From the IMG/VR virus record IMGVR_UViG_3300007542_000015, positions 1 through 34,580 of that record: a stretch of 34,580 bases of DNA. One strand, written 5' to 3'. Below, one piece after another: positions 3,332 through 24,951 of the stretch. Source of the DNA: a virus. Made by a program: the position numbers and the translations under genes. Each line of letters begins with the position of its first letter. Positions within the stretch are counted from its first letter, which is position 1. Below the pieces are notes generated by a model, which worked only from the letters and a program-made list of their open reading frames with translations, was not told the DNA's origin and did not search any database.

Positions 3332-5363
3332 GTTCGATCTAAAGATAGGAAAGAACGAGCTAGATAAAGGTCTTGATTCTGGAATAAAGAAATCAAAAGA
3401 TCTTAATGGTGTACTAGAAACGGCTCTCGGTGTATTCGCAGGAAACTTAATTACAAGCGGAGTTAATACTGTAGTAGGCGCATTTGGCGACCTTGTTTCC
3501 GTTGCTAAAAGATCAGTAGACGCAGCAGCACTCCAAGAAGTTTCAGTCAATAATCTAAATGCAGCACTATCTAGGGCAGGAATATTAACAAGAGAAACAT
3601 CTCAAGATCTTCAAGAGTTTGCATCACAATTGCAATCTGTCTCCACATTTGGCGATGAGGCAATTCTCGGAGTATCTTCGTTAATAACATCACTAACAAA
3701 GCTAGATAAAGAAGGCATCAAGAGTGCAACGGCTGCAACTATTGATTTAGCTACTGCGCTTGATATTGATCTTGGCACAGCTCAATTGCTAGTAGCAAAG
3801 GCTGCTAATGGTAACATAACCGCTTTTCAGAGATACGGAATTTCAATTGAAAAGGGAACAACAAAAACCGAAACATTTGCAAACACTCTAGAGGCTTTAA
3901 ATAAGCAATTCGGAGGAGCAGCATCATCAAAGCTAAATACTTATTCAGGCTCAGTCACTAGCTTGTCAAATGCCTATGGTGATTTATTTGAACCAATTGG
4001 TGACGTGGTAGTAAAGAACACTGACTTCATAGCAACGATAAATGAGATTAAAAAAGTAGTAGTTGAAGTAACTAAAGAAATATCTAGCAGCAACTCAGTT
4101 TATTCAGAGCTTGCTTCCGATGGTATCTTTGCTGCAATAACAGCTACTCAAATATTCTTAGATGCTCTCGATGGAATTACTGTTGTGTCGAAAGCATTAA
4201 TTAACTCAATAGTAGCAATAAAAAACGCAATTGTTTTAGGTGTAATCGAGCCGTTTAGACTTGCTTACGATGCTGTGCTTTTACTGTTACAAAACATTCC
4301 AGTGCTTGGAAGCCAGTTTGAGAATCTTGTAAACCCATTAGAGAATCTTGCAAACTCAATACGTGGCGATTTGATTGAATCAATAAACGATATTTCAAAC
4401 TCTGTTGATGGAAACGTTTTTAGATCATTGTCCGATGGTGTTGCAAAGTTTGGAAATGATATTATTGAGACATCAGCAAACATAAAGCTTTCAAATCAAG
4501 AGATAAAAAACTCAAATGCTGAAAGAGTTACTGATGAAGATGAAACAGATAAAGCAATAATTGAAAAAAGAAAGCAGTTAAATTTTGAGATTTTAGCACT
4601 TCAACAATCACTTGCAACAGAGCAAGCAACGGCGGCTGAAGAACTTAGAAAAATACAACTTGAAGCTGAAGGCGAAAGAGATATATCTGGAATAGAAAGA
4701 ATAGCAGAAATAAAGCGTCTTGAAGTTGAGGCAATTTTTCAAGCTGAGAAAGATAAGAACGCGCTAATTACTGACTCAAAAGAAAAAGAATTGGCCGATG
4801 AAAGATCATTTGCAAAGGCAAAGCTTGCCCTTGTAAAAATAAACTCAAAAGCTGAGATTGATGCAAAAAGAGAATTGGCACTTCAATAGTCTCAAATATT
4901 TAATTCTAGAATAGCAGCAACTCAAAGCTTCCTGTCTCTTGGAGAAGCTCTATCTAAAAGCGGATCAGTTACGGCCAAAGCCCTAGCGTCTGCAAACGCA
5001 GTAGTTTCCACTTACGCTGGTGCCACTCAAGTTTTAGGAGATCCTGCCATCCCAACTCTTGCCAAGCCAGCATTTGTCGCAGCTACAATTGCTAGCGGTC
5101 TTGCAAACGTAGCAAGAATCAATGGTGTTCAATTTGAAGATGGCGGTATTGTTGGTCAAACTGGCGCAACAAAAGGGCCAGACAATAGAGTAGCAACCAT
5201 TAGAGATGGTGAAATGATATTGAATGCAGAGCAGCAAAAGAAACTATTTGATGCAGTTAATAGCGGAAGCATGGGCGGTGGTGATATAATTTTACAATTA
5301 GATGGAAGAGAAATAGCCCGAGCGGTTAGGACTCAAATAAATGCAGGGTTTAAATTAGCATGA
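3315..5363 (+). CDS. Tape measure protein, interrupted by an in-frame amber codon
   Basis: The frame starts at GTG 3315 (GAGAGG upstream) and would encode 682 residues if the TAG at 4887-4889 were read; as written it stops after 524. The N-terminus (KIGKNELDKGLDSGIKKSK) and the Ala/Thr/Ser-rich helical body are typical of tape measures. Hydrophobic segments lie at about 285-330, and a long coiled coil (about 415-524) leads into the stop. After the amber the same frame continues for 157 codons with no other stop and carries the usual C-terminal signature (DGGIVGQTGATKGPDNR... IRDGEMILNAEQQKKLF), ending in a TGA that overlaps the next ATG. A full-length protein would predict a tail near 100 nm by the usual 0.15 nm per residue rule. 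See findings for the amber codon. Confidence 0.9.
4887..4889 (+). other. In-frame amber codon inside the tape measure gene
   Basis: The codon context is CTT CAA TAG TCT CAA. Frame, codon style and protein signature continue unchanged on the far side. One C-to-T change from CAG (Gln) would make it. No strong ribosome site with ATG/GTG follows closely, so internal restart is not obvious. Confidence 0.9.
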
Positions 5364-6977: not shown

Positions 6978-9844
6978 AATCACTTTTAACTTTAATCTTC
7001 TTCTTTTTGGTTAGCACTTTATCATTTGCACAAATGGCAAACAGGCTTGATAAGCTTGAGGTAAATGACGTTACGGCTAAGAAGCTGGATGTCGTGTCTA
7101 CAACATCAGGATCTAAGCCTTGTCCAAGTATGTCTATAACTCAAAGAAATGAAATCGTTTCACCTGTTGAGGGTCAATGTATTTACAATAATTCTGTTAA
7201 AACTTTAAACCTTTATGATGGTTCATCATGGGTCGAAGTAGCTGGCGGCGGTGGTGGTGGAATTAACAACTGGCAAACTTCATTTTTTTATGATGTTGGA
7301 GCCGTTGTAATTGAGTCCGATAAGATTTATCAAGCAACAACTCAACACACATCAACAGTATTTTTGTCTGATATTTCAAACTGGGTAGAGCTTGCTAATG
7401 ATGTTTCAAGCTCTGTTGGTGTTCTTCCTATGTCAAATGGTGGTACGGATAAAAGCCTAACGCCTTTACTTGGTGGTTTGGTTTACACTGATGATCTATC
7501 AATGGAAGTGCTACCTGCTGGAACGTCTGGGCAATTACTTAAATCAAATGGCTCTGCTGCACCAGAATGGACTACATTATCAGTAGATGACGCGTCTTTC
7601 TCAGGTGTTTTATCAATGGAGAAAGGTGGAACAAATAGCCCACTAACTGCCACGCCTGGATCTATTGCATACTCTGATATTGATTCACTTGAGTTATTGT
7701 TGCCAGGCACGCCTGGTCAGGTACTTCAAACTAATGGCACTGATGCTCCTAGTTTTGTTAACCAGAGTATACTCGGCAAGCTTGGTGATGGCTCAACTGT
7801 TGTTATCGAAGAATTGCAAGCGCCTAATAATCAAATGACTCAGGTTGACACTAATAAGCACTTAATTGAGTCAGGAAATAAAAACATCCTTCAAAATCCT
7901 AGCTTCGAGTCTTTGCTGGAAGGCGGCTCAATTCCTTATTGGAGTTACGGGTCTTTATCGCCAGTTCAGGAAGAATCATCAAATGTTATTGATGGTAAAA
8001 AGATAGCTGTATTTAGTGCTTCTTCTGAGCCAATACTTCTTACACAATCGTCTACATTATATGCTAACGCATTTGCTGACGGAGTTCAGGGTCTTGTAAG
8101 TGTAAGAGTTAAATCAGACGTAGCCTTAAAGGTTTGCTCAGTAAGTGCTGGAACAACATCAACTTCAAATTGCGTTGACGTAGTACCTGATAATAAATGG
8201 GGTCTTTATAAAGTTCCTACAATTTTAGGAGCAACGTCTAATGGTATCTCAATCGCATCAAGTGGCAATGTAACTGGTGCTGTATACATTGATGATGCTT
8301 TTGTTGGGCCTCAAAGTTTGACTCAAGACACTTCAACTTGTAACTCTATTGAGTGTGAGACTGAGTTTAGTGCATCAGTAAGTGCAGCAACCCCTTCGAT
8401 AACGTCTCAAAATCTTATCTGGGTTTCTTCTGTTGCTAAATCTGGAACTTCTAGTAACATAAAAACTCTAACGATTCCGACTGGTCTTTTTTCCGTAATG
8501 CCCTCATGTTCTTGTACTACGTCTGCGACTGTAAGTTCAAATGACTTGTCATGCGTATTTAATAGGTCAGTATCCTCTACTACCAGCCTTCAATTTAACA
8601 CGCGTAATAATAATACATTCCTAGATTTAGACATTGATATTGTATGCCAACGCTCCGGCTCCGACTTCACAAACGCCAAGCGCCTTGGAAATAACACAAC
8701 TTACTCATCAACTAATGCAGACACTGACTGGGCTTCATGCGGTCACACTCCTTCAGACTTTACAGGATTCGGAACAGTCTCAGCTATTGAAACTCAATGT
8801 AAGCGCCAAGGAAGTGATTTATTGATGCGTGGTAATTTCACCGCAGGAGCAGTTGCAGCGGTCGAGGGAAGAGTAGGATTAAAACTCAATGGCGCATCTT
8901 TAACGAGTGCAGGAATTTATAAAATAGCAAGTATCCAGATTGCAGGAAGAATCGCTGTTAATGCCTCTACGGGATTATTTGAACGAAATGTCCTAATAGA
9001 GCCATCTGTAATCTATATGACTTTCGGAGCATCAAGCGCCTCGAATGCCTCACTGGTAAAAGTGAACGGTAATTTTGTTGGTATCGCATCCACGAAAATG
9101 TCACTCAACGCTCGCATTCCTATCGAAGGATGGGAAAACTCTAATTTAATCATCGGTCAATTTAGCGGACTAGAAAAATGTACAGACTCTTATGAGTGTA
9201 CTGATACATTTAGTGCTCAAATATCCGCTACGGGAATTGTGATTGCAGGAAGTGAAAATATTGACTGGATCGATGGAAATTGTTCAATAACAGGCACATC
9301 TGGTGCTACGTGTACTTATAATACTAATCTGGTTACACAACCAATGAATTGTGTTTCTACTTCATCTAGCCAGTATCATACAATAATCACACCCAGCACA
9401 TCAACGGGATTTACCTCATACACATATAATAGTTCTCACGAACGGGCCGCAGCGGAGCAATATATAATCTGCCAAAAACAAGGCGCAGATTACGTTTCAA
9501 AGACAGCTAAGGCGGTTGCTTCAGATCAGAATTTGAGAACACCAGGAGTGACAAAAGCGGTAGTTTATAGTGCTTTTGTTAGTGGAACAACTGTAAGTAA
9601 CGAAATCGGAAATCTTTTTCAGGGAGGATTCAATGGGGGAAACCCAAATACTGGGACTTTTACTTCAGGGATATTTGCATCGACTCCCTTATGCGTAGTA
9701 GGTTCAAGAAGTGGTGCGCAGTTACAAAATCAAATAACGGCAATCTCGCAAACATCAATTTCGGTGCAGATGACTAACACTAACAATGCGGCTAGTGGGG
9801 CCGGAGGTTCTTTTAATATTACGTGCCATGGACAATCCCCATAA
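6974..9844 (+). CDS. Large modular tail fibre with N-terminal signal peptide
   Basis: A 956-residue fibre-like protein. Residues 1-20 (MKSLLTLIFFFLVSTLSFAQ) form a clear Sec signal peptide, odd for a virion protein. Next comes a segment typical of surface fibres (CIYNNSVKTLNLYDGSSWVE, then a Gly run), then two tandem copies of a repeat of about 60 residues (SNGGT...LPAGTSGQLL.SNG..AP and EKGGT...LPGTPGQVLQTNG..AP). A carbohydrate-binding-like beta domain (about 305-450) follows. The C-terminal half has two related Cys modules, each beginning IECETEFSA or YECTDTFSA and ending CQ(R/K)xGxD(F/Y), around a middle module (WASCGHTPSDFTGFGT... RIPIEGWENSNLIIGQFSG). The protein probably recognises the host surface. 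Codon style changes near 8645, suggesting module exchange. Confidence 0.8.
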   Translation: MKSLLTLIFFFLVSTLSFAQMANRLDKLEVNDVTAKKLDVVSTTSGSKPCPSMSITQRNEIVSPVEGQCIYNNSVKTLNLYDGSSWVEVAGGGGGGINNWQTSFFYDVGAVVIESDKIYQATTQHTSTVFLSDISNWVELANDVSSSVGVLPMSNGGTDKSLTPLLGGLVYTDDLSMEVLPAGTSGQLLKSNGSAAPEWTTLSVDDASFSGVLSMEKGGTNSPLTATPGSIAYSDIDSLELLLPGTPGQVLQTNGTDAPSFVNQSILGKLGDGSTVVIEELQAPNNQMTQVDTNKHLIESGNKNILQNPSFESLLEGGSIPYWSYGSLSPVQEESSNVIDGKKIAVFSASSEPILLTQSSTLYANAFADGVQGLVSVRVKSDVALKVCSVSAGTTSTSNCVDVVPDNKWGLYKVPTILGATSNGISIASSGNVTGAVYIDDAFVGPQSLTQDTSTCNSIECETEFSASVSAATPSITSQNLIWVSSVAKSGTSSNIKTLTIPTGLFSVMPSCSCTTSATVSSNDLSCVFNRSVSSTTSLQFNTRNNNTFLDLDIDIVCQRSGSDFTNAKRLGNNTTYSSTNADTDWASCGHTPSDFTGFGTVSAIETQCKRQGSDLLMRGNFTAGAVAAVEGRVGLKLNGASLTSAGIYKIASIQIAGRIAVNASTGLFERNVLIEPSVIYMTFGASSASNASLVKVNGNFVGIASTKMSLNARIPIEGWENSNLIIGQFSGLEKCTDSYECTDTFSAQISATGIVIAGSENIDWIDGNCSITGTSGATCTYNTNLVTQPMNCVSTSSSQYHTIITPSTSTGFTSYTYNSSHERAAAEQYIICQKQGADYVSKTAKAVASDQNLRTPGVTKAVVYSAFVSGTTVSNEIGNLFQGGFNGGNPNTGTFTSGIFASTPLCVVGSRSGAQLQNQITAISQTSISVQMTNTNNAASGAGGSFNITCHGQSP

Positions 9845-19168: not shown

Positions 19169-19337
19169 CTTGCATCCTTTTAAAAGCCAAGTCGAGTGGC
19201 TTCTGTTTGTTTTGTATCGTTTTACATTTACATTTAGTCTGTGCTGTTACACTTACATCATTCATTGCCCACTTGTCACCATAATTAAACTCATATTCAA
19301 AAAAACACTTTGGGCATATAATTATTTCAGAACTCAT
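19104..19337 (-). CDS. Small zinc-finger-like protein
   Basis: A 77-residue protein with CPKC near residue 8 and CKC near 36, a possible four-Cys zinc site, then a basic helix. Its ATG overlaps the previous stop (ATGA) and has GCAAAGGAAAATAA upstream, an identical copy of the ribosome module before the ParB gene. It ends 65 bp inside the ERF gene with tandem TAG TGA. A DNA- or RNA-binding role is plausible from the Cys pairs. Confidence 0.6.
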   Translation of the reverse strand: MSSEIIICPKCFFEYEFNYGDKWAMNDVSVTAQTKCKCKTIQNKQKPLDLAFKRMQDEINLRGSGKISNTNEGSGKG

Positions 19338-19981
19338 AATTTATTTTCCTTTGCATAACTTCTTAGAGATCTAACAAAATACTCTCGATCATTGCGCTCA
19401 AAAGCCTCATTGCTTATTAAGCCCTGCTGAAGTATTGCATCACCTTTCTTAAAATAAGATCTTAGCCAGTCATTCAATACTAGCATCTCTTGATAGTATG
19501 CGTTAAACATTCTTGAGGCTGGGAATATTTTGTCAGCGTAAATTTTACACATACCAGTTAATTGCTCTTGAGTTCCAAACGTCATGAATTTGGCTTTTAA
19601 ATGGAAATAACATCGGTGTGATAGATCATTTAGCTCATCAACTGAAACGCTCGCCTTGGCCATATATGGACGTAATAGCTCCATAATTTGATTAAGTGTG
19701 GGCATCTTCTCAAACTTGAATGGGATTGATTTACAAACTGCTTCTAAATTATCATCACTGCACCCTGAGTCAATTATATCCTTGGCCCAAAGCGCAAGTG
19801 TTGACTGGTTTGGTGCATACTGAAATCGAAGTGCCACGTTTTTAAGGTGGTTTTCTGCATTGGACTTCTGAACGTCTAGTGACTTGTGAGATTTTTTTAG
19901 CCTATCAAGGGACGGCTCATCATTCCAGCCCTGCATATATTTAATGGTTGAGCTTATGTCGTGTGTCATTTTTGCATCCAT
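19334..19981 (-). CDS. First gene of the leftward early operon, unknown helical protein
   Basis: A 215-residue, mostly helical protein with no family recognised with confidence. The middle (LALWAKDIIDSGCSDDNLEAVCKSIPF, then MPTLNQIMELLRPYMA) has the look of small phage replication or helicase-loader-associated domains, but this is weak. As first gene after the divergent control region and upstream of ERF/SSB, a replication or regulatory role is likely. Two starts are possible: ATG 19981 has no ribosome site, while ATG 19969 (MTHDISS...) has GGA six or seven bases upstream and may be the true one. Confidence 0.65.
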   Translation of the reverse strand: MDAKMTHDISSTIKYMQGWNDEPSLDRLKKSHKSLDVQKSNAENHLKNVALRFQYAPNQSTLALWAKDIIDSGCSDDNLEAVCKSIPFKFEKMPTLNQIMELLRPYMAKASVSVDELNDLSHRCYFHLKAKFMTFGTQEQLTGMCKIYADKIFPASRMFNAYYQEMLVLNDWLRSYFKKGDAILQQGLISNEAFERNDREYFVRSLRSYAKENKL

Positions 19982-20131
19982 TTGTTTTTATTTGTAAAAT
20001 ATCTTGTAAAACAAAAAATAACTTATGTAAATAGACACATTTAAATCGTGTAATAGTTTCAATATCTAATTATTAGATAGTTGATTGATAATTATTATAT
20101 ATTACATTCTGACAATTATTGGGTAATCAAT
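19982..20131. promoter_or_regulatory. AT-rich divergent control region, candidate promoters or origin
   Basis: About 150 bp between the leftward operon and the candidate RNA. It is strongly AT-rich, has two TTGTAAAA copies (from about 19992 and 20004), a perfect 17-bp palindrome and the run ATTATTATATATTA (20091-20104). It probably holds the divergent early promoters. No -35/-10 pair with good spacing was convincing. An easily melted origin is possible. Confidence 0.45.
20063..20079. promoter_or_regulatory. Palindromic operator candidate
   Basis: TATCTAAT-T-ATTAGATA is a perfect 8-1-8 inverted repeat in the divergent control region. Its size and symmetry suit a dimeric HTH repressor such as the XRE protein encoded at 23310. 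I found no second copy elsewhere in the window by eye. Confidence 0.5.
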
Positions 20132-20147
20132 ATGAATCAATCAGAAT

Positions 20148-20560
20148 GGTCTATGCCTGTTGCCCGAGTACGAGAGATTGATGCGAAAGGGATAAAGCAT
20201 AGTAAGCAACGAAGCCTGACGGTTAATAGCTTAGGATGATCTAGCATCCAATTTGAATTACCTAGACGCTACTCCGAATAGGATTAAAGTAGAAAGCACT
20301 CCCAACTTAATGTCATGATGACGGTATAGTTTAATCTAGCGATTGGGACGAGATGAAAGATACAATGTGAGTTTTATAATTTCTGACTACAGGTTATAAA
20401 ACAGTATCTAAGGCTTCCTATTCCCTCGGGTTAATGTACTTTTAAAATAAAAATCTAATTTCTCTCTCGAGTAACATTTAGCCTTTAGGCCGAGCGCATG
20501 ATGCGCGAGTGTTACTGAGAAAACAAGCTGGAAGCGCGTTAGTCTTAATAGCAATGCTTT
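20148..20560 (+). ncRNA. Candidate large structured non-coding RNA
   Basis: About 400 bases with no convincing coding frame and a GC content of about 42% in 20151-20360. Pairings read directly: CTATGC 20151-20156 with GCATAG 20197-20202, interleaved with GTTGC 20159-20163 and GCAAC 20206-20210 (a pseudoknot order); GGATG/CATCC 20234-20249; TCCCAA near 20300 with TTGGGA near 20343; a 9-bp hairpin GTTTTATAA/TTATAAAAC 20371-20402 capped by CTG-ACTA-CAG; and a three-way junction closed by AGTAACA/TGTTACT (20470-20476 with 20510-20516, extended by TTTCTC/GAGAAA) enclosing GCC-TTTA-GGC and GCGC-ATGAT-GCGC hairpins. Strand is assumed from the rightward genes. I do not recognise the family. Large phage RNAs such as GOLLD or ROOL are possible comparators. 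Ends are approximate. Confidence 0.45.
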
Positions 20561-20583
20561 GAAAAATCTAGTATCTTTATTTT

Positions 20584-20853
20584 ATGAAGAATTATAAAGC
20601 AGACGTTTCTTGTATAGTGTGTGGTTGGAGAATGGGCGGCATGGTTACTTATCACCATGTTTATACCAGAAAAGCCTATCCAGAATATTCAACATCAGAA
20701 TTTAATCTAATGCCTCTTTGCGCTTGGCATCACAACGAAACGCACAGCATTGGAACAGTGTCTTTTTCTAAAAAATACTCATCAGTTAATGACTGGCTAA
20801 TCTCTAAAGGTTGGCAACTGTTAAGTGGCAAATGGATTTACTCAAGTAATTAA
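20584..20853 (+). CDS. HNH nuclease
   Basis: An 89-residue HNH protein. It has CIVCGW near residue 10, TYHHVYTRKAYPEY (first His pair) near 21, and CAWHHNETHSIG near 46 with the N and final H of the fold, so it probably binds zinc and cuts DNA. It resembles short HNHc nucleases of phage replication/recombination regions more than intron endonucleases. No ribosome site is visible upstream (TATCTTTATTTT), so expression may depend on the structured region before it or on leaderless initiation. First gene of the rightward early operon. Confidence 0.8.
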   Translation: MKNYKADVSCIVCGWRMGGMVTYHHVYTRKAYPEYSTSEFNLMPLCAWHHNETHSIGTVSFSKKYSSVNDWLISKGWQLLSGKWIYSSN

Positions 20854-20891: not shown

Positions 20892-21863
20892 ATGGTTATT
20901 GAATTACATGAAATAGTAACAAGATTGAAGGCGCTGGCAAGCGAGCTAGGAAAGACTCCTACTGCCAAGCAGTTTGAGTTGTCAGGCATCTCTAAAAGAC
21001 AAATTCATAAGCATAGGTACTCAGAGATTTGTAAGATGGCAGGGCTTGAGCCAAACAGAAGGCCCCAAGACCAAGAGACTTATAAATTAGAGCTAAAACC
21101 TCCCAGGATTCTGATATTTGATATTGAGTCAAGTGATATGCTTGTAAGAGTATATGGCCTAAGAAATAACGACTACATCTCGCCCAATAACATAGTAAAA
21201 GATTGGCACTTATTGTCCTACGCTGCCAAATATTGGAAAGATGATAAAATGTATTATTTAGATAATAGATACGCACTTGATACAACAGACGACAGGCAAA
21301 TAGTTGAAGGGCTGCACGATCTTATAAGCAATTCAGATTGGATTTGTGGCCATAACATGAAGTCGTTCGATATTAAAAAGCTAAGAGCAAGAGCTGAGTT
21401 TTATGAGCTTCCACCAATCCCTCCTGTTAGAGTAATTGACACACTGACAATATGCAGAAAATACTTCGCCCTGTCATCAAACTCACTAGATTATGTAGGA
21501 AAGTATTTTAATCTAAAAAATCGAAAATCAAGCCATGGCAAGTTTCCAGGCAAGGCATTATTTGATGAGTGTATGAATGGAAACATGGAAGCATGGATGG
21601 AGTGCGAGCTTTATAATAAGCAGGACGTCATTGTTACTGAAGAGTTATTTGAAAGACTAATGAAGCATGACAGCTCGATAAATTTCCAAAGCCACACACA
21701 AAGCAAAGTTTGCTCATGTGGATCCATAGAGTTTAAAAAGAACGGCTTTAAATATGCAGCAAGCGGAACATTCCAAGCATATGCCTGCAAGGCTTGTGGA
21801 AAGCATCATCAAAGCAAAGACAATTTAATAGACAAAGAAACAAGAAGGGAATTTTTAAAATGA
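20892..21863 (+). CDS. DEDDy exonuclease with N-terminal homing-type repeat and C-terminal zinc ribbon
   Basis: A 323-residue protein in three parts. Residues about 8-55 (LASELGKTPTAKQFELSGISKR... CKMAGLEPNR) match the homing-endonuclease-associated helical repeat pattern, a likely DNA-binding unit. Residues about 70-255 are a RNase H-like exonuclease: FDIES (Asp77, Glu79), GHNMKSFD (Asp160) and YNKQD (Tyr241, Asp245), the DEDDy set. The C-terminus has a zinc ribbon (CSC at 274-276, CKAC at 299-302). It probably trims DNA during phage replication or repair. No clear ribosome site. A small hairpin AGGCA/TGCCT (20865-20879) lies just upstream. Its stop overlaps the next ATG. Confidence 0.82.
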   Translation: MVIELHEIVTRLKALASELGKTPTAKQFELSGISKRQIHKHRYSEICKMAGLEPNRRPQDQETYKLELKPPRILIFDIESSDMLVRVYGLRNNDYISPNNIVKDWHLLSYAAKYWKDDKMYYLDNRYALDTTDDRQIVEGLHDLISNSDWICGHNMKSFDIKKLRARAEFYELPPIPPVRVIDTLTICRKYFALSSNSLDYVGKYFNLKNRKSSHGKFPGKALFDECMNGNMEAWMECELYNKQDVIVTEELFERLMKHDSSINFQSHTQSKVCSCGSIEFKKNGFKYAASGTFQAYACKACGKHHQSKDNLIDKETRREFLK

Positions 21864-24333: not shown

Positions 24334-24951
24334 GTGATCGTTAAGACCATTAACAATAAGGATAGTTATCCTTACTTACTAGAGATACATTACGCTAAAA
24401 GAATCCCTTCGATCTCGTACTGCTTTGGTTTATTTAGCAAAGAAGAGTTGATTGGTGTTGTGACTTATGGGACGCCAGCCTCGGCTACTCTTAGGCGCGG
24501 AATAGCAGGGGATGACTTTAAGGGTCACATACTAGAGCTTAATCGACTTTGTTTAAAATATAACAGAAAAAATGAAGCTAGCTTTTTAGTTGGCAGAAGC
24601 TTAAGAATCTTGCCAAAAAATAAGATCATCATATCTTTTGCCGACACCCTTCAGAAGCACGTGGGAACAGTTTATCAGGCCTGTAATTTTAAATATTATG
24701 GTCTGAGCGCAAAAAGAACAGATTGGGCAATAAAAGGAATGGAGCATTTGCATGGTCAAACCATAGCTGACATTTCACGTGGGCAGAAAAATAGATCTGA
24801 GTTTATGAGGGAGACATACGGAGACAAATTCTACCTAAAGCCAAGGTCCAGAAAGCACAGGTACATAATAGTAACAGGGAAAAGCATTCCTTATTCCGTT
24901 ATTAAATACAAACAAGAGAGCTACCCTAAAAAAGCATCAGATTATATCTAA
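24334..24951 (+). CDS. Mom-like DNA modification protein (GNAT fold)
   Basis: A 205-residue protein resembling the Mu Mom family: LFSKEELIGVVTYGTPASATLRRGI (about 31-54), HILELNRLCLKYN, then ISFADTLQKHVGTVYQACNFKYYG (about 107-130), the usual hallmark block. Mom proteins have a GNAT fold and convert adenine to a modified base that blocks host restriction enzymes. The start is GTG with AAAGGG upstream. As in Mu, expression may be tightly controlled, and a hairpin and terminator lie directly before the gene. Substrate and modification here are not visible from sequence. Confidence 0.78.
   Translation: MIVKTINNKDSYPYLLEIHYAKRIPSISYCFGLFSKEELIGVVTYGTPASATLRRGIAGDDFKGHILELNRLCLKYNRKNEASFLVGRSLRILPKNKIIISFADTLQKHVGTVYQACNFKYYGLSAKRTDWAIKGMEHLHGQTIADISRGQKNRSEFMRETYGDKFYLKPRSRKHRYIIVTGKSIPYSVIKYKQESYPKKASDYI

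Follow-up and report, generated by a model that had tools for sequence, protein, structure and literature searches.

HK022 put is a cis-acting RNA antiterminator of two stem-loops (~70 nt in total), present as the copies putL and putR, which binds the beta-prime zinc-binding domain of RNA polymerase and suppresses termination (PMC9378689). GOLLD and ROOL are noncoding structured phage RNAs of several hundred nt with Rfam models (PMC12286853), frequently located near tRNA genes (PMC7567579), and phage ICP1 expresses an abundant noncoding transcript of ~800 nt in its lysis cluster (PMC7567579). The RNA described here resembles put in being a structured RNA placed early in a predicted early transcript, after a promoter-like block and, in some relatives, before a terminator-like hairpin, and in the size of its folded core (~60-86 nt, against ~70 nt for put). 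Unlike put, it consists of a three-way junction followed by a hairpin instead of two stem-loops, and it occurs as one copy per record, none being found on the leftward transcript, whereas HK022 carries both putL and putR. With these differences the phage RNA is not a put member, and the likeness is an analogy of place. A likeness to GOLLD and ROOL had been suggested from the sequence alone, and it goes no further than the presence of a noncoding structured RNA in a phage. Instead of a multi-domain structure of several hundred nt, the conserved core measures ~86-110 nt and the 230 nt on its 5′ side are devoid of conservation or folding signal; no tRNA gene was found in the window, and the Rfam covariance models were matched neither by the window nor by its relatives. 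The ICP1 transcript, compared by place and size alone, also comes from a long gene-free phage space (the transcript being here predicted), but differs in both genome place and size.

The window, i.e., the whole stretch of DNA analysed, is an IMG/VR record of 34,580 bases from an uncultured phage, with no DNA match among phage isolates and plasmids. It encodes tail, head and terminase genes together with a divergent early region. The leftward replication/recombination operon carries an unknown protein (the 19334 gene), an Erf-like annealing protein, an SSB and an exonuclease, and the rightward operon carries an HNH nuclease followed by an exonuclease. The long gap noted between these operons was confirmed, with 602 bp (19982-20583) that make it the largest gene-free gap of the window. 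The lack of a ribosome site before the nuclease gene was also correctly noted; a Shine-Dalgarno sequence is missing from the first genes of both operons (starts 19981, 20584 and 20892), while a simple test detected one in 32 of 50 listed genes. The AlphaFold model of the 19334 protein, with a mean pLDDT of 62, was too weak for a fold search.

Considered by itself, the 413-nt stretch at 20148-20560 gave little sign of structure. Its folding energy corresponded to a z-score of -0.66, 21 of 100 shuffles folding as well, and its counts of exact complementary arms of 7, 8 and 9 nt were equalled in 44-45 of 171 equal-sized genome windows, i.e., about a quarter. The excess of complementary arms put forward by the sequence-only reading was thus not recovered, and single-sequence folding (z about -0.7) was rejected as evidence for an RNA. 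The 5′ part (20148-20380, ~230 nt) showed no folding signal (z = +0.45) and no detectable homologue in the relatives. The arms of the reported 9-bp hairpin, GTTTTATAA and TTATAAAAC, are present at about 20371-20403, but the interleaved helices of pseudoknot order found no support, the only DNA covering that part being a near-identical contig (L001) with four differences to the window over 8,969 bases, none of them in the element. A second junction-like copy at ~20290-20345 (GTCATGATGAC within TCCCAA/TTGGGA) was discarded, since it was missed by both covariance models described below even with filters off. The 3′ core was accepted as real because of comparative evidence only.

Related IMG/VR contigs were brought in through the exonuclease alignment A1. 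A blastn comparison of one of them (L010) with the window, in which folding was ignored, gave a match within the gap at 20447-20553 (74%, E 1.3e-12), and the same motif was seen upstream of the exonuclease in L013 before any pattern search. A pattern search of IMG/VR, with stem arms left as N, recovered L010 and L013 and added L096 and L127. The pattern contained the letters CATGATG, CGAR and GAGAAAA, so that invariance in the members it found is partly imposed, including GAGAAAA in L096 and L127; it did not specify the arms of stem A or the variable pairs, two in number, of hairpin C. The ~86-nt core is therefore carried by four other phage contigs, with an identity to the window of 73% in L010 and about 61% in L013, L127 and L096. 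As the cores of L013 and L127 are 96.5% alike, the members represent four distinct lineages. In L010, L127 and L096 the core occupies the same divergent gap, between the homologue of the 19334 gene and the exonuclease; the L013 contig lacks its left end.

The alignment of these five sequences (A5) comprised 23 pairs in four helices, with 96.5% of cells paired (Table 1). The closed three-way junction with two hairpins described from the window alone was found at 20466-20519. Stem A is the strongest helix: its 10 pairs are intact in all five sequences, and six of them have changed on both sides. Every sequence also has the bulged G (20469). Overall, 11 of the 23 pairs displayed two-sided changes, which are the compensatory changes that the sequence-only reading had proposed as a check. 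The covariation score reached 0.591, against 0.205 after shuffling and at most 0.10 when the alignment was slid by 1-3 columns, and none of 500 shuffles attained the observed value. The same picture emerged from three non-redundant sequences, the two-sided changes amounting to 10-11 of 23 pairs across both tests. Chance complementarity in non-functional intergenic DNA would agree with the unremarkable single-sequence folding, but it is already contradicted by these covariation tests, the signal being lost on sliding, and we regard it as exceedingly improbable. A structured RNA at ~20458-20543 is, on these comparisons, very probable. What stands of the proposed new RNA is consequently this segment, supported by covariation, and not a large ornate RNA of 400 nt.

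The plus strand is favoured, because U-G and G-U pairs are preserved on it and because model R1 scored 105 bits on this strand vs 19.8 bits on the other. The same evidence bears on a DNA hairpin or protein-binding site acting as single-stranded DNA rather than as RNA. Both strands do fold, the minus strand with even lower z-scores in single sequences; however, the conserved U-G/G-U pairs, loops and junction letters favour a plus-strand RNA, and the element follows a promoter-like block when read in the direction of transcription, which leaves such a DNA site highly improbable. Hammerhead ribozymes also have a three-way junction, at which the strands CUGANGA and GAAA are conserved, and constitute an Rfam family. 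The junction strands are here short (YGA, GAR) and differ from them, without a CUGANGA/GAAA core and without an Rfam match.

Table 1. Features of the divergent early region (window positions unless a contig is named).
Feature	Position	Strand	Remarks
Unknown-protein gene	19334..19981	-	Divergent neighbour on the upstream side, conserved in L010, L127 and L096
AT-rich divergent control region	19982..20131	.	GC 18.7%; similar AT-rich stretch in L127 and L096
Candidate promoter	20353..20380	+	ATGAAA-16-TATAAT, 10/12; weak, such sites not in excess over shuffles
Predicted 5′ leader of the transcript	20387..20457	+	Poorly conserved
Conserved RNA element	20458..20564	+	Model R1, 105 bits
Element core	20458-20543	+	Leave-one-out model R2 (built without the window), 70.1 bits, E 2.5e-15
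Stem A	20466..20519	+	Closing helix of the three-way junction; 5′ arm 20466-20468 plus 20470-20476, 3′ arm 20510-20519
Hairpin B	20481..20490	+	GCC-UUUA-GGC; 95% of cells paired, one two-sided change
Hairpin C	20494..20506	+	GCGCA-UGA-UGCGC, UGA triloop kept; pairing in every cell, two-sided changes at two pairs
GAGAAAA	20517..20523	+	Conserved, with the initial three bases closing stem A; noted in L010 and L013 ahead of the pattern search
Hairpin D	20527..20535	+	GCU-GGA-AGC; pairing in 85% of cells, two-sided changes at two pairs
HNH nuclease gene	20584..20853	+	89 aa; outside the element
Exonuclease gene (phrog_403)	20892..21863	+	Conserved downstream neighbour of the RNA
31-nt block GAATGAAATNNAAATGAATGTCAAACTCNGG	L013:528-558, L127:9535-9565, L096:9413-9443		
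G-runs	L013:~204-222, L127:~9211-9229, L096:~9144-9162, L010:~4166-4183		

The distribution of the element was narrow. Three patterns retrieved no IMG/VR member beyond the five, further matches being without the junction, and one pattern run on 84,980 GTDB species found no copy, its matches likewise lacking the junction. The core was also absent from the exonuclease relatives outside the divergent arrangement (L011, L012 and L393-L396). These patterns demand exact letters and could miss distant members; on present evidence, the element seems limited to a narrow phage clade. A search of Rfam 15 returned no match at the gathering score for the window and none for the relatives, in line with an uncatalogued RNA, and the matches obtained at relaxed thresholds (snoRNA, CRISPR, cobalamin) were set aside as implausible and below the gathering score. 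The element is best read as a new RNA family, absent from Rfam 15. Besides, the upstream neighbour was found elsewhere in another setting: L292 carries, on the reverse strand at 4010-4640 and beside a homologue (39% identity) of the 19334 protein, a ~630-nt gene-free stretch unrelated to the core. It folds better than shuffles (z -2.68), has no Rfam match and may represent a further phage RNA in this position.

The HEARO (IscB omega) RNAs form an Rfam family and adjoin an IscB-type gene (RuvC+HNH). An HNH gene is likewise found near the present RNA, but the encoded domain measures 89 aa and moves without regard to the RNA, being elsewhere or missing beside it in relatives, and the RNA has no Rfam match. 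Nothing lies between RNA and exonuclease in L127 and L096; the window-type HNH is found 3.3 kb downstream of the RNA in L013 and L127, a different type (HNH_3, L010:4426-4794) takes its place in L010, and in L395 the window-type HNH precedes an exonuclease in the absence of the RNA. From these arrangements the suggested link between RNA and nuclease gene was rejected, and the HNH gene appears to be incidental to the RNA. Differing mobile-type nuclease genes flank the divergent gap across relatives; in L127 (8767-9057), the encoded protein gave PADLOC hits that look like GIY-YIG.

The surroundings of the core suggest how it may be transcribed. The core is preceded, in L013, L127 and L096, by a conserved promoter-like block, TATTGACA-N17-GATAAG, its spacing being counted from TTGACA. 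Downstream of the core, ~36 nt before the exonuclease start codon, an 8-10 bp terminator-like hairpin with both-sided changes is followed by TTTTTTCTTTT. A simple scanner flagged neither feature in the relatives, owing to a weak -10 and to a terminator loop above the permitted length; both rest on conservation. A leader transcript of ~370-400 nt, running from the promoter-like block to the terminator-like hairpin, is plausible in these three relatives. From the best promoter-like site in the window (20353-20380), transcription would start near 20387 and not at 20148, which places stem A about 80 nt downstream, within the range of the relatives. Between core and terminator, the 31-nt block GAATGAAATNNAAATGAATGTCAAACTCNGG is nearly invariant in the three relatives and absent from the window and L010. 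A different arrangement was seen in the upstream region of L011 (1130-1240), where a GGCTGCACC/GGTGCAGC helix overlaps a CCCCG/CGGGG terminator-like arm; the overlapping helices are a possible pseudoknot or attenuator, with a single-sequence z of only -0.8.

G-runs occur at the predicted transcript start in four relatives (GGGAGGGGTGGGGGAGGG in L013/L127), where they possibly form a G-quadruplex or a slippage site. Together with the AT-rich flank (19-22% GC) and the adjoining replication-type genes, they would agree with a replication origin situated in the AT-rich divergent region, the RNA being its primer or forming an R-loop, or the DNA itself being folded. However, the window has no G-run at its predicted start and the exact DnaA box TTATNCACA occurs nowhere in it, its GC skew reflects only operon orientation, and a primer would not need a conserved three-way junction. 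Such an origin is considered improbable.

We propose instead that the rightward early operon, which faces away from the leftward replication/recombination operon, begins with the plus-strand RNA. This RNA has the conserved fold of a three-way junction (stem A with its bulged G, hairpins B and C) followed by GAGAAAA and the GGA-loop hairpin. It would be made as the operon's 5′ leader, starting in the divergent control region, and would influence transcription elongation or termination in cis. In L013, L127 and L096, expression of the operon would depend on conditional read-through, as with a put-type antiterminator or an attenuator, because the terminator-like hairpin and its T-run precede the exonuclease and no evident promoter was seen after them. 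Cis control is preferred because of this order, i.e., promoter-like block, RNA, terminator-like hairpin and exonuclease, with no visible second promoter. Against a cis leader, the leftward transcript bears no copy of the RNA, and no terminator was found between the RNA and the next gene in the window and in L010. The terminator switch is thus visible in three relatives only, and the cores of two of these are 96.5% alike. No antiterminator helix of an alternative, mutually exclusive kind was found.

The main rival to the cis leader is a free-standing, trans-acting noncoding RNA (~370-400 nt) that would have a promoter and a terminator to itself and would bind a protein or the host machinery, its proximity to the exonuclease being incidental. 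Abundant phage noncoding RNAs of such a sort are known (ICP1; PMC7567579), and in L013/L127/L096 the gene-free unit is bounded by the promoter-like block and the terminator-like hairpin and its fold is more stable than shuffles (z -2.6 and -3.5). However, in all five members the exonuclease comes directly after the RNA, it has no evident separate promoter, and the missing terminator in the window and L010 also speaks against a free-standing unit. This RNA acting in trans is a doubtful but serious possibility. The full proposal of a conserved RNA, serving as early-operon leader and acting in cis, is itself held tentatively, at somewhat under even chances.

A narrower form of the cis leader, in which an RNA-only antiterminator or terminator switch of a three-way-junction class unrelated to put controls the early operon of an uncultured phage clade, seems unlikely. 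Few natural cases in which RNA alone controls phage transcription elongation are well described (HK022 put), and a second, unrelated architecture, if true, would mean that such control recurs. Whichever way it acts, a phage RNA family now has a secondary structure, a strand and a genomic context, and offers a directly testable candidate element of early-operon control.

Two other features were observed in the window, namely a second large gene-free gap of 470 bp at 4890-5359, in the tail gene region, and a gene for a Mom-like DNA modification protein at 24334-24951 (phrog_1384, E 2e-49).
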